Below are positions 37,244 through 42,712 of a stretch of DNA of 64,000 nt, in pieces. The DNA comes from Blepharisma japonicum (lineage: Eukaryota; Ciliophora; Heterotrichea; Heterotrichida; Blepharismidae), in contig CATKHK010000068.1 in NCBI GenBank assembly GCA_949751835.1, forward strand, positions 62,001-126,000, read 5' to 3'. The notes beneath the pieces were generated by a model that did not search any database, was not told the origin of the DNA, and worked only from the letters and a program-made list of their open reading frames with translations. Numbering within the stretch: position 1 is the first letter of the stretch; each line of letters opens with the position of its first letter. The translations under genes and the position numbers were made by a program.

Positions 37244-37971
37244 TTATAAGAGTATATGCTTAAGAGATGAAGCTAGATTTACTGTGTATCATTGATTTAG
37301 GAAAATTTAGATATCTGCCAAATGAGGTGAATGAAAATAATAAAATTTAGAATTATAGATATAAAGCAATGAATAAACTCATTTTCCTTGGTCTCCCCAC
37401 AATTCTATGTATTACTTAACTCAAATCTAGAAATAGTATTTGTCTTTGGAGATTCAATTATAATAATCTACTCATATGAGATAAAAAGACTATTTATAAA
37501 TCTGACTGCTCTTCTCCTTTTTACAGTTTCATTTATCTTTCTCTATAGTTATAAATAATTTTTATAATTGTTTAATAATCAATGCTTATTCTTTGCTGAA
37601 GCGACCTATAAACGCTAAAAAAAAATATTTCCAATTAGATTTAGTTAATCTGTGCAAAGCTGTGATTCTTGTCAGTATCTCCTAATAAATATTCAAATTC
37701 AAAAGTCCGCTTTAAGCTTCTGAGCTTATAATAGCTGATAGTTCTTAAGCCTCAATTCTCGATCCCTTATCCAGCTATTCTCAAGCATATATAATTATCA
37801 TCAATTTAATAATACACTCAATTCTTTAACTGCAACTTCCTTTTACCTTATTTTCAAACTATCTATATTTTCCAGCTGAAAAATCTTACTTTTTTCATTA
37901 GAGTCAGATCCAGTCAGGACTGGCCAAAAAGAACATATAAATTAGCCGATTCTGTTGTGACCTTATAAAAT
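37244..37971. other. Intergenic between divergent genes, nothing recognised
   Basis: About 730 bp, AT-rich; promoters of DPCD and the UBC/U-box fusion gene should lie here but no motif is certain. Confidence 0.5.
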
Positions 37972-40900
37972 ATGGACCAACAATTAATTGATCTTCTCGT
38001 CGAAGTCCCAGGGAAAGGGCCATTAATCATTGCAGCTCCATCTACTCTAGACGAATTACTCTTATTGATTTCTCAATACTCTTCATATCAAAAAACCGAT
38101 CTTTCTATCCTCTACAAGCGTAAAGAAACTTGGTTTGGAATCATAGACCAAGCTACTTATTCATCAATTCTTAAGCGTGCACAGACAGCAAACCAATCTG
38201 AGGTCGAAATTAAAGTAGAAATAAGTGCTCAAGCTCCTCAAAATCAATTAGAAGAGTTAAAGACCGAAGTAAGCTGGGAAATCATGTCAAATGTCCCTGC
38301 TCCAGTATCTGTGCCTGAAACTTTGATTGAGTCTGAAGCAACTCCACTTATTCAATATCGCTATTTAAATAGCGACGATCCAGAAACATTTAACCAGCTA
38401 AGAATCCCAGCTTTAGACATCACGCTAGAAGACCTATCAAATTTAGTTTTACAGCTAGAAAACAAGCCTCCTGCAGACTTTATTTGTGCATTTTACAGTG
38501 AAGATGGATGCCCGCTATATGGAAGCTTGTCTCAGATGCCTTTTATTAAATGCAATGAAGTTATTCCAGGCTCCTGCAAACTTTCTGTGCTGATTGTACC
38601 TAATTTTGATGTGAAATCTCTCCCTGCGAAAGACCCTAATGAAGGCTCTGACACTGTAATTTTCCAATCCAGTGCCGACCTGACTAAAACTTTTACTGTA
38701 AAAGTGACCTTATCGACTACCACAATCCAAGATCTAAAGCAAAAGCTTTATTCCTTAACAAGTATCCCTACTTTTGAAGCCAAATTTAAATCAAATGACA
38801 TTTTCCTAACAAATGACACCTTTACATTATCATCTTACAATATAAATCAAAATCAGACCATTATTTATTGGAAAGAGAGCTATGATTACACTACAAGGAC
38901 TTATAAACCTATCATAAAACACACTATTGAGCAAACTATTGATGGAATTAAGCTATTCCATTCCTTTTTATATTGCTTTTCTAATGTAATTGGAACATGT
39001 GAAAAACCTACTCGTGAAGCCATTTTAGGCATGATAAGACAAGCATCTCAGAATAATAGTCCACTTTTGCATGCTTTATATGAGCTTAGTATAGAGAAAC
39101 CTATGAGTTTATTAGACTCAATTGCTTTAGAAGAAGGGTTTATTTTTATTATTAGCCATTTAGTAAAAGAACTAAATGCCGCAAATAAAGTACCAAATGA
39201 TAAACTATTTGAAAATTGCTTAGAAGTGATAGGGTTATTATGCGAAATCGGCTGCAAACCAACTGAAGAGTACTCAAGAGATGAAACTTATTTAGAATAT
39301 GATACCATCTGCCCATTATCCTTGGCAGAACTAAAGAATCCTGTATGCTTAAGAAAAATTGATGGGACTTATGCTTACTATGAGCATGAAGCTGTGCTAA
39401 AAAGAGCTCAGGAGCATACAGAAATTGTGGGTGTCGGACTAGTAAAAGAGTCACAAATAAAAATCACCCAAGATTTTGTATACTCTGTTAAGCGAGCTGT
39501 TTATAATGGAAAAGAATCAATAATTCTCTGGACTGGGACTTTTGACCGCAGCAACACTTTTCCTAACATCATAAGAGCTTCTTTCCCACAAGGACTTGTA
39601 TGGGACCAATTAATCCAAATTAAGAAAAACTACAAGCTTTCTAAAATTGCCTCAGCTTTATCATTAAAAAGCTCTGAAACCCGCCATTGTATAACCCTCG
39701 ACAAAAATAAAGAAATTGTTGTAAACAGAGGATTATCTCCTAAAGAGCCAAATACTGTAGAATTAATGAACATTCTGACGAGAGATGTATCGAAATATGA
39801 TATTGACGATATGGCAAGCATAATAGAAAGGACAAGCAGAGATGATCCTGCTATTGAAACAATCACAAGGCCACCAGACGAAACTATTGTTGTTATTTTT
39901 GATAAAAGCGGATCTATGGGAACTGCATTTGGACCTGAAGGGGAATATACCAGACTTGATGCCACAAAGCAATTTTTCGAATCTTTTGCTGATAGGACTG
40001 TTGGGTATAACCTTAACCATGTTATGTCTTTAGTCCTCTTCAGCACAACCTTAGATAGGGCTTGTGGATTTACTGAAAATATCTCGACATTTACAGCAGT
40101 TGCACATCAGTCAAGACACTCAGGTGGAACTAAACTGTGGGACGCTATATATGACGCAATTCAGTCACTTGTAGAATTTAAGGGGAAATACCCAAGTACC
40201 CATTTGAGAATTTTATGTTTAAGTGATGGAGAAGATACATCGTCAGTCCATGGCTATTTACAAGTAGCCCAGCAGCTGATTGCAAATAATGTGATTATGG
40301 ACAGTGTCGTTGTAGGTGACCTTTCTCAGAATTTGAAAGCTATTTCTTATGCCTCTGGAGGCTATGTCTTTTTGCCAGCCACTTTGCAAGCAGGAATCAA
40401 GCTATTTGAAAGTGAGACATTGCTGTCGGTGAGAAATAGAAAATCTATAGTAAAAAGTATGGTAAATACTGATAATGATTTAGAGCCTTTAAGAAGAAGA
40501 GAATTTTCTAACCAACAGCCTGCTATGGCAGCTCCAGCAGAAATTTCTCAAGGTGCAGTGACAGCAGAGCAAGCTTTGAAAAAAATGGTTGCTTCTCCTC
40601 CTGTACCCCAAGCGAAAAGTGGCTCTGCAGGATGCATTAAAAGAATAATGAAAGAACTGCAAAATATCTCAAGTAACCCTCATGAAAATATTGTTGTACT
40701 ACCAAGTGAAAATGACGTAATGTTTTGGAATTTATATATTGAAGGACCAGAACATACTCCTTATGAAGGAGGTCTATTTCAAGCCTTTGTAAGATTTCCT
40801 AATGATTACCCCTTCAAGCCTCCTACTATTAGATTTGTTACTCCTATATACCACTGCAACATAAACTCCACAGGAAGAATCTGCCATTCAATTTTAGACC

Positions 40901-41331
40901 AATTTTATTCGCCTGCAGTTAATGTAAGACATATGTTGGATTGCATATATGGGCTGCTTATGACTCCAGAACCTATGGATCCCCTTGATGCTTATATTGC
41001 GTCTGAAATTAAAGATGATTATGAGCTCTATGTGTCAAAATGCAGAGAACATATACAGTTACATGCTAGCAAATCATTTGAAGAATTAACTGGAATGAAA
41101 AAGCCTGTTAGTGGAACTGTTATCCCTGGAGAATTTTTAGATCCGATTTCGAAAAGGATTATGAGCGACCCAGTAGCCATTAATGGGAAAACATATGAAA
41201 GAGCTGAAATTGAAAAAATAATTGACCAGACTGGAAAAGATCCTGATGGAGTTGATGCAAATAAGGCTGATTTAGTCCAAGATACTGGACTCTTGCAAAG
41301 AATTGAAGAATTTAAGCAGGCCCACCCTTAA
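37972..41331 (+). CDS. UBL / U-box / vWA / UBC (E2) / U-box fusion protein
   Basis: 1119 residues in one uninterrupted frame. A ubiquitin-like fold is suggested at about 240-305 (FTVKVTLSTTTIQDLKQKLY). A U-box-like segment is at about 444-500 (TICPLSLAELKNPVCL). A von Willebrand A domain spans about 637-835 with a full MIDAS: DKSGS at 644, GGTKLWDA near 717 and LSDGED near 751. A ubiquitin-conjugating domain covers about 885-1045: MKELQNISSNPHENI, FPNDYPFKPPTIRFVTPIYH, catalytic Cys971 in RICHSIL, and H961-C-N963 where HPN is normal. A second U-box closes the protein (DPISKRIMSDPVAINGKTYE). So E2 and E3 activities sit in one chain with a Mg2+-dependent binding domain. Confidence 0.95.
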   Translation: MDQQLIDLLVEVPGKGPLIIAAPSTLDELLLLISQYSSYQKTDLSILYKRKETWFGIIDQATYSSILKRAQTANQSEVEIKVEISAQAPQNQLEELKTEVSWEIMSNVPAPVSVPETLIESEATPLIQYRYLNSDDPETFNQLRIPALDITLEDLSNLVLQLENKPPADFICAFYSEDGCPLYGSLSQMPFIKCNEVIPGSCKLSVLIVPNFDVKSLPAKDPNEGSDTVIFQSSADLTKTFTVKVTLSTTTIQDLKQKLYSLTSIPTFEAKFKSNDIFLTNDTFTLSSYNINQNQTIIYWKESYDYTTRTYKPIIKHTIEQTIDGIKLFHSFLYCFSNVIGTCEKPTREAILGMIRQASQNNSPLLHALYELSIEKPMSLLDSIALEEGFIFIISHLVKELNAANKVPNDKLFENCLEVIGLLCEIGCKPTEEYSRDETYLEYDTICPLSLAELKNPVCLRKIDGTYAYYEHEAVLKRAQEHTEIVGVGLVKESQIKITQDFVYSVKRAVYNGKESIILWTGTFDRSNTFPNIIRASFPQGLVWDQLIQIKKNYKLSKIASALSLKSSETRHCITLDKNKEIVVNRGLSPKEPNTVELMNILTRDVSKYDIDDMASIIERTSRDDPAIETITRPPDETIVVIFDKSGSMGTAFGPEGEYTRLDATKQFFESFADRTVGYNLNHVMSLVLFSTTLDRACGFTENISTFTAVAHQSRHSGGTKLWDAIYDAIQSLVEFKGKYPSTHLRILCLSDGEDTSSVHGYLQVAQQLIANNVIMDSVVVGDLSQNLKAISYASGGYVFLPATLQAGIKLFESETLLSVRNRKSIVKSMVNTDNDLEPLRRREFSNQQPAMAAPAEISQGAVTAEQALKKMVASPPVPQAKSGSAGCIKRIMKELQNISSNPHENIVVLPSENDVMFWNLYIEGPEHTPYEGGLFQAFVRFPNDYPFKPPTIRFVTPIYHCNINSTGRICHSILDQFYSPAVNVRHMLDCIYGLLMTPEPMDPLDAYIASEIKDDYELYVSKCREHIQLHASKSFEELTGMKKPVSGTVIPGEFLDPISKRIMSDPVAINGKTYERAEIEKIIDQTGKDPDGVDANKADLVQDTGLLQRIEEFKQAHP

Positions 41332-42154
41332 GAATTGAATTAGATTAATAACATTTTGATAATTCGCCTTTATTTTATACTCTCTCTATTGTTATATCAT
41401 TTTTTTTATTTGGATATCAAAGATGATTAACAATTAAGAATTTTAACTGTTTTTAAGCTCTCTGGCATGATAAGTCGTCAGAAAAAACCTTAAATCTAGT
41501 TTTTAATGAATGCCTCAGTCCTCAAAAAGTGTTATACTGTTAGATTCTCTTCCAAAATGCTGCAAATCCCTAGCCACACAAATATCAGGGTATATTACAA
41601 ATTCCAAGCTTATATGGTGTTAAGCAAACAACATCAATATTTTTTACTTCAAACTTAACACCTTGAATAAAATAATAATAAAAATCTAATATTAATCCAA
41701 AAAAGTGTTAGCCATTAATTGCTGAAGTAAAAGCATATGCCTTCGAGGCTGTATAAATCGCTAGACAAGCGCAGCCTCTGTTAATAATTACTAATCTTGA
41801 GGGCCTTAAAGGTAATTAGTAAGAGTTTTCTTGTCAATAATTAAAAAGATTTTTATGTGAATCATAGAGTAGTTTTAAGTGGGTTAAAAGAAAACCCCAC
41901 ATTATTAATAAAAATGGAGGCATCTAATTTTTTTCTTCAAGAAAATTGTGGATGATTTCTATTGAAATTCTTGAAAAAGATATGAATATATATTCCCAAA
42001 ATTTTCTCTTATGCTTAATAATATAAAAAATCATACAGATATAATTGTAATATTTATTTTCCTCAACAACGTTAATTTTTCTTTAATTAAAATGAAATTT
42101 AAAATATTTTTATTATATAAGACTTTTTATAATAAAATCGCAATTAATTGATTT
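41332..42154. other. Intergenic with clustered inverted repeats
   Basis: 820 bp downstream of the fusion gene and ARL8. No protein-like frame. The segment 41616-41822 has several inverted repeats (separate entry). Confidence 0.6.
41616..41822. ncRNA. Candidate structured non-coding RNA (three hairpins)
   Basis: Three stem-loops in about 207 nt: GGTGTTAAG at 41616-41624 pairs perfectly with CTTAACACC at 41654-41662; GAGGCTG at 41745-41751 pairs with CAGCCTC at 41772-41778, enclosing CGCT (41759-41762) with AGCG (41768-41771) directly adjacent; TAATTAC at 41785-41791 pairs with GTAATTA at 41812-41818. I cannot assign it to a known RNA class and strand is unknown. Chance pairing in AT-rich DNA explains the third stem more easily than the first two. 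Confidence 0.3.
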
Positions 42155-42712
42155 TTATCTACCTTTATTTCTCTTAAGATTCGTCAAATACTTCAAAGTT
42201 GCATCAATATTTGTCATATTTTTAGAACTCACACTATAGCATGCGACAGTTCTACCTGTAATAGCATTCAAGCTTAATGCTGAAATTAGCTCTTCTTCAT
42301 TGAGTGCTCCATCTAAGTCATTCTTATTCCCCAGCACTAATAATGAAATTCCTTGTAACGAAGGCCACGATAACAATTTTTGCAATTGAGCTTTCGCAAC
42401 TTCAAGATTACCGAAGTCAGCTGAATCCACAACAAAAATAATGCAATCCACATTTCTGCAGTATTTTTCCCAGCTTTCTCGAAATTTAGGTTGTCCACCA
42501 AGATCCCAGAGTCTCAGTTCGACACCTCCTTTTTTAATTCTTCTATGGTTAAATCCAATTGTCGGTATTGTGTCTTCATCAAATTCAGAAGTTGCAAGAA
42601 CATTTACAAAGGTCGTTTTTCCTGCGTTTTGTAGACCGACGATTGAAAGCTCCATTTGCTGGCTCCAAAACATTGAACGAAGTCAATTTAGGAATCGTGA
42701 CCAGAGTCCCAT
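42155..42712 (-). CDS. ARL8: ARL8 small GTPase
   Basis: 185 residues (human ARL8B has 186) from ATG 42712. A TGA-encoded Trp sits in the first helix: MGLWSRFLNWLRSMFW, equal in layout to human MLALISRLLDWFRSLFW. This helix anchors ARL8 on lysosomes after N-terminal acetylation. G1 is GLQNAGKTTFVNVL, switch I TIPTIGFN, G3 WDLGGQPKFRESWEKYC, G4 LGNKNDL, and the C-terminal half contains CYSVSSKNMTNIDATLKYL, matching the ARL8-specific region (CYSISCKEKDNID). ARL8 recruits motors and tethers to lysosomes. A start at the internal Met (42673) would remove the helix and is unlikely. Confidence 0.96.

Follow-up and report, generated by a model that had tools for sequence, protein, structure and literature searches.

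We analysed a 64,000-nucleotide stretch of the genome of the ciliate Blepharisma japonicum (NCBI GenBank assembly GCA_949751835.1, contig CATKHK010000068.1, positions 62,001 to 126,000 of the forward strand; this whole stretch is called the window in the following) and focused on one gene at window positions 37972..41331 on the + strand. On balance, the sequence of this gene favours a multidomain ubiquitin E2/E3 hybrid, that is, a protein with a ubiquitin-conjugating (E2) domain and a ubiquitin ligase (E3) domain on one chain. Both domains are found in the window protein. The E2 part matches UQ_con (PF00179) at residues 891-1027 (E 1.7e-39, 135 bits compared to a Pfam cut-off of 27), and a C-terminal U-box, which starts roughly twelve residues beyond the E2, matches PF04564 at residues 1051-1118 (E 1.1e-9, 38.7 bits compared to a cut-off of 21.4). 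The same U-box is recovered by hhalign against a profile of U-boxes from the same genome (E 1.5e-20, probability 99%). This profile contains 27 usable loci of 30 that were fetched from 50 U-box matches; L038 and L056 were dropped for a stop and L052 was empty.

The gene is a single ATG...TAA frame of 1119 amino acids that is identical under genetic code tables 11 and 4, with an in-frame TAA directly upstream at 37966-37968. In Blepharisma stoltei, UGA encodes tryptophan and introns are predominantly 15 and 16 bp long, according to the available text of PMC9942806. The window gene contains no TGA codon, whereas three homologues described below contain 3, 4 and 1, read as tryptophan. TGA is also present in most of the neighbouring frames listed under table 4 and in many of the genomic U-box matches. 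The initial annotation had proposed that all domains are joined in one chain, and for the E2, the vWA and the C-terminal U-box this is supported by the uninterrupted frame of 1119 amino acids together with three homologues that have the same continuous frame.

Seven Pfam families match the window protein at E<=1. The chain runs from N1 through a block at residues 126-212, a ubiquitin-like block, a block at 312-438, a U-box-like region and a block at 511-634 to the vWA domain, the E2 and the U-box. The features, all on the + strand, are as follows.

37972..41331, +: single open reading frame of 1119 amino acids plus TAA; the homologues share the start methionine and a similar end
37972..38226, +: N-terminal module N1, residues 1-85, also present on a WD40 protein of striatin type encoded elsewhere in this genome
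38347..38607, +: second conserved N-terminal block, residues 126-212, of no recognisable family
38647..38877, +: ubiquitin-like block, residues 226-302 (Pfam stretch 239-297, below cut-off)
38905..39285, +: conserved block, residues 312-438, which is 76%, 45% and 40% identical to its counterparts in the homologues
39289..39501, +: diverged U-box-like region, residues 440-510 (hhalign against U-boxes of the same genome)
39877..40446, +: vWA domain, residues 636-825 (Pfam stretch 639-803, above cut-off)
39901..39915, +: DxSxS of the metal-ion-dependent adhesion site (MIDAS), D644-S646-S648, invariant in four of four family members
40129..40131, +: MIDAS Thr720, invariant in four of four
40225..40227, +: MIDAS Asp752, invariant in four of four
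40627..41079, +: E2 (UBC) domain, residues 886-1036 (Pfam UQ_con stretch 891-1027)
40852..40860, +: H961-C962-N963 motif, invariant in four of four
40882..40884, +: catalytic Cys971, aligned with the Cys of UBE2D-type chains, invariant in four of four
41116..41322, +: C-terminal U-box, residues 1049-1117 (Pfam stretch 1051-1118, above cut-off; hhalign)

The window gene belongs to a family of four genes. We searched the whole genome (45.2 Mb, 224 contigs). In the search with the window protein, 41 of 123 first-look candidates were scored and 37 matches cover the E2 part alone. Three long homologues were found on other contigs, here termed C36 (71% identity over query residues 1-1048), C15 (45%) and C86 (40-41%). 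All three are open when TGA is read as tryptophan and keep the domain order, C36 without the last U-box. UQ_con, VWA and ubiquitin match in all four members at E<=1 and the U-box in three; in these three it follows the E2 directly and scores above the Pfam cut-off, with 50.2 bits in C15 and 54.6 in C86 compared to 38.7 in the window gene. Since the homologues have the same order in one frame, the gene encodes one protein and the domain combination is not due to chance. The genome contains at least 127 E2, 50 U-box and 36 VWA matches, and the E2 count may include separate exons. Among the matches listed, three places have an E2 and a U-box on the same strand and no more than 4 kb apart, and four places have an E2 and a VWA so arranged; all of these are family genes. 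In another four E2 pairs at this distance, the partners lie on opposite strands.

To place the E2 domains of the family, we inferred a tree of 20 E2 rows, in which the four form one clade (support 100/99) compared to 16 other rows. One row, L026 (30 residues, from a locus at a contig end), was miscut but retained; flagged rows are L026 and four others that are long, among them the family member L012, the C86 homologue. The E2 was therefore probably joined to the chain once. Divergence between the window gene and the C36 homologue is 0.198 at nonsynonymous sites (dN) and 1.264 at synonymous sites (dS). The lowest dN among 12 segments is found for the vWA (dN 0.107, dS 1.597) and the E2 (dN 0.111, dS 1.178). 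The other comparisons yield dN 0.529 and dS 2.275 (window gene and C15) as well as 0.486 and 2.306 (C15 and C86), where dS is near saturation.

The closest solved relatives of the window E2 are mostly UBE2D/Ubc4-type E2s. Cys971 is aligned to their Cys, which we take to be the active site of UBE2D-type chains, and His and Asn are aligned as well; UBE2D has HPN, whereas the window E2 has HCN and is part of a 1119-residue chain. The residues around Cys971 are GRICHS and DQFY. H961-C962-N963 and Cys971 had been correctly located in the initial annotation, which further regarded HCN as an unusual change next to the active site. HCN is also carried by UBE2E1-3. The canonical E2 motif is given as 'histidine proline/cysteine asparagine' in the available text of PMC10971424, so that Pro or Cys is a normal middle residue; the window E2 retains His, Asn and Cys, and all four family members, the window gene included, have HCN, Cys971 and Asp1003 without change. 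We thus dismissed the reading of HCN as an anomaly. The middle residue is Pro at all 16 other E2 loci examined (14 HPN, one HPA and one HPW), which are the best of the 37 E2-only matches, and HCN is for this reason a mark of the family. By sequence, HCN appears distinctive for the four genes within this genome, yet does not point to a loss of activity. The window E2 also keeps K890-R891, Phe948, S980-P981-A982 and Asp1003 as in aligned UBE2D-type chains, positions that presumably serve E3 binding and catalysis in UBE2D. Of these, K890-R891, Phe948 and S980-P981-A982 are kept in the C36 homologue.

Between the N-terminal half and the E2 lies the vWA domain (PF00092 at residues 639-803, E 2.9e-7, 31.3 bits compared to a cut-off of 23.8). 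The MIDAS pattern of vWA domains is DxSxS...T...D. The complete MIDAS that had been proposed is present, with D644, S646, S648, T720 (previously placed near 717) and D752 (near 751), and is invariant in the four family members. The ubiquitin-like domain is weaker than proposed. Among three conserved N-terminal blocks, the third alone matches ubiquitin (residues 239-297, E 1.2e-4), with 22.2 bits below the cut-off of 25.4; a ubiquitin-like fold of block 226-302 is plausible. A profile search of the Protein Data Bank (PDB) with block 126-212 yielded nothing credible (best E 0.30), and block 312-438 matches no Pfam family at E<=5. The region 37300-42000 has no match in Rfam.

E2 and E3 are normally separate proteins, and their encounter is weak and transient. 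In the mechanism that we propose, E1 would charge Cys971 with ubiquitin, the C-terminal U-box would bind the ubiquitin-loaded E2, either that of the same chain or that of an adjacent molecule, and prime the transfer, and the N-terminal blocks together with the vWA would select a partner or substrate and place it beside the charged E2. The protein would thereby supply its own E2 and E3 rather than recruiting them. The sequence supports the parts of this mechanism and not its steps. That the chain could act without separate E2 and E3 had been suggested in the initial annotation; this is plausible given the precedent of BIRC6 and UBE2O (available text of PMC13061254), but E2 and E3 are not joined in every member, as the C36 homologue lacks most of the last U-box.

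Several observations weigh against a hybrid that works in this way. In the C36 homologue (L010), some 50 residues with the core of the C-terminal U-box are missing (L010:1432-1500) and the tail before the stop is kept, so that this member does not carry both domains; the U-box thus appears not to be needed in all members. The C15 and C86 homologues have Leu in place of Phe948, and TVD or TAD in place of the S-P-A loop, which may weaken classical E2-U-box docking. As one member with intact docking residues has no U-box, whereas two members with altered docking residues have one, action in cis should not be taken for granted. Two positions after Cys971, the window E2 has Ser973, whereas the aligned UBE2D-type chains have Asp. 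Structure prediction without an alignment gave no usable model (mean predicted local distance difference test score 34.0 for residues 1-640 and 36.1 for residues 626-1119). Finally, region 440-510 has no Pfam U-box match and lies above the threshold of no family.

This last region had been annotated as a first of two U-boxes that flank the E2. The C-terminal copy stands, whereas the first can be matched to the U-box profile of the genome only at lower probability (hhalign E 1.1e-4 in a single comparison, probability 56%, 61 columns). Among eight other regions compared in the same way, seven score no better than E 0.08, and the remaining one is a shortened version of 440-510 (3.6e-4, 37%). In Pfam, the region has a fragmentary match to zf-Nse at residues 444-463 (E 0.007, below cut-off), and the PDB profile search yielded nothing credible (best E 2.6). 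C-P-(L/I)-S, P-V and D-G are kept in four of four family members, and the region is best called diverged and U-box-like. The E2 is also not directly flanked on both sides, as this first region precedes the vWA.

The same observations can be read differently. The protein may be an E2 with partner-binding domains that mainly uses separate E3s. In this case, the U-box would be accessory or serve other E2s, and the vWA, like the N-terminal blocks, would do no more than localise the protein. We regard this as possible, if doubtful. It would account for the C36 homologue, which lacks the U-box core and yet has an E2 that is 81% identical to that of the window protein, and for the UBE2D-like surface residues kept in the window E2; furthermore, only three of the at least 50 U-box matches in the genome belong to the family, such that other U-box proteins could serve. 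It is harder to reconcile with the U-box directly after the E2 in three of four members, an arrangement found nowhere else among the matches listed.

A catalytically silent pseudo-E2 that acts as a scaffold and binds ubiquitin or ubiquitin enzymes is very unlikely. HCN instead of HPN and Ser973 in place of Asp could be taken in its favour; however, HCN counts among the accepted forms of this motif (available text of PMC10971424), Cys971, His961, Asn963 and Asp1003 are invariant in all four members, and the E2 is one of the two most constrained segments. An accidental fusion, whether of two genes or through an assembly error, is hardly credible, and we rejected it: on other contigs, three loci encode this order without interruption when TGA is read as tryptophan, and the linker between vWA and E2 (residues 826-885) is aligned with one gap position in each homologue. 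We retain the E2/E3 hybrid as the favoured reading of the window gene.

The N-terminal module links the family to a different protein. A search with residues 1-879 detected a fifth locus at E 2.5e-8, in addition to two weak matches of the ubiquitin-like block (E 0.05 and 0.2), and the fifth locus reaches E 3.2e-22 with the C86 protein as query. This locus (C3:579246-580757; L059:247-1758) is one frame of 503 residues with a C-terminal WD40 propeller. Among solved structures, its closest match is Striatin-3 (7k36_B, E 8.3e-55), followed by the next at 2.8e-27. In a six-frame search that disregards introns, N1, of about 85 residues, was found at five places in the genome at E<=1, namely the four E2 genes, whose copies are 52, 43, 35 and 33% identical to the C3 copy, and the C3 gene itself. 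A search with the C3 protein, in which 115 of 270 candidates were scored, yielded two other propellers that are 44% identical to it; these are absent from the N1 matches. No Pfam family matches N1 above cut-off, with PB1 reaching E 0.0077 in one homologue alone, and the PDB profile search yielded nothing credible (best E 0.46); to call N1 PB1-like or ubiquitin-like is a guess. As N1 was found in just these two kinds of protein, we infer that it may resemble a pairing domain. The four proteins could then be catalytic subunits of a single-chain E2/U-box ligase of ciliates, paired through N1 with L059 as a substrate receptor or as a link to a phosphatase scaffold, which we consider rather unlikely.

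Some further observations were made on the genome. The E2 repertoire is large, with clusters of matches on C21 near 80-92 kb, C107 near 71-130 kb, C68 near 219.7-223.2 kb and C79 near 106-112 kb. Outside the four-gene family, several E2 matches sit in frames of 500-885 residues. A local cluster of seven U-box matches spans about 43 kb (C78:63333-106389). Directly upstream of the C86 homologue and on the same strand, a frame of 451 residues (L012:4-1359) has a full-length DDE_Tnp_1_7 transposase match (E 1.3e-47), presumably of the PiggyBac type. The next gene downstream of the window gene, at 42155-42712 on the opposite (-) strand, encodes a small GTPase of the Arf/Arl type (Pfam Arf, E 3.7e-43).

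Lastly, we compared the window protein to known systems. The alignment of the whole protein yielded no relative in viral or prokaryotic genome collections and the alignment of the E2 none in viral contigs; each of these scans used two short peptide patterns, by which distant relatives would be missed. The combination of E2, U-box and vWA was not met in literature searches, in which subscription journals were thinly covered and some sources were available in part. The plant vWA-RING E3s include the RGLG/copine type. Those of the WAV3 family share a vWA and an E3 module on one chain (available text of PMC6118397), but WAV3 has a RING, whereas the window protein has no RING family at E<=1, a U-box instead and an E2 on the same chain. 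PARP6/8-type proteins likewise have a C-terminal UBCc on a large multidomain protein (passages of PMC2964712 and PMC4245714); they carry a PARP domain, of which the window protein has none at E<=1. BIRC6 (Apollon) and UBE2O, which are termed E2/E3 hybrid enzymes, resemble the window protein in having an E2 (UBC) domain and E3 function on one chain (available text of PMC13061254). Large UBCc proteins of the BIRC6 kind have BIR repeats (passages of PMC2964712), whereas no BIR is found in the window protein at E<=1. As to UBE2O, no further family is above the Pfam cut-off in the window protein; the UBE2O sequence itself was not compared. The window protein differs from both enzymes in that a U-box immediately following the E2 forms its E3 element and that it also contains a vWA.

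One solved chain, 8v0d_B, bears the label of a UbcH5B-RING fusion, and E2-RING fusions of this type suggest that laboratories join E2 and E3 deliberately. A natural E2-U-box family, with one member without the U-box and others with altered docking residues, offers a ready comparison of ubiquitin transfer in cis, in trans and free of the U-box. Through this family, ubiquitin tagging is moreover connected to a vWA of the MIDAS type and, via N1, to a propeller resembling striatin, all within a unicellular organism. The protein is best read as a natural single-chain E2/E3 hybrid, a kind already known, in which the domains are newly combined and the architecture is unlike that of BIRC6 and UBE2O.

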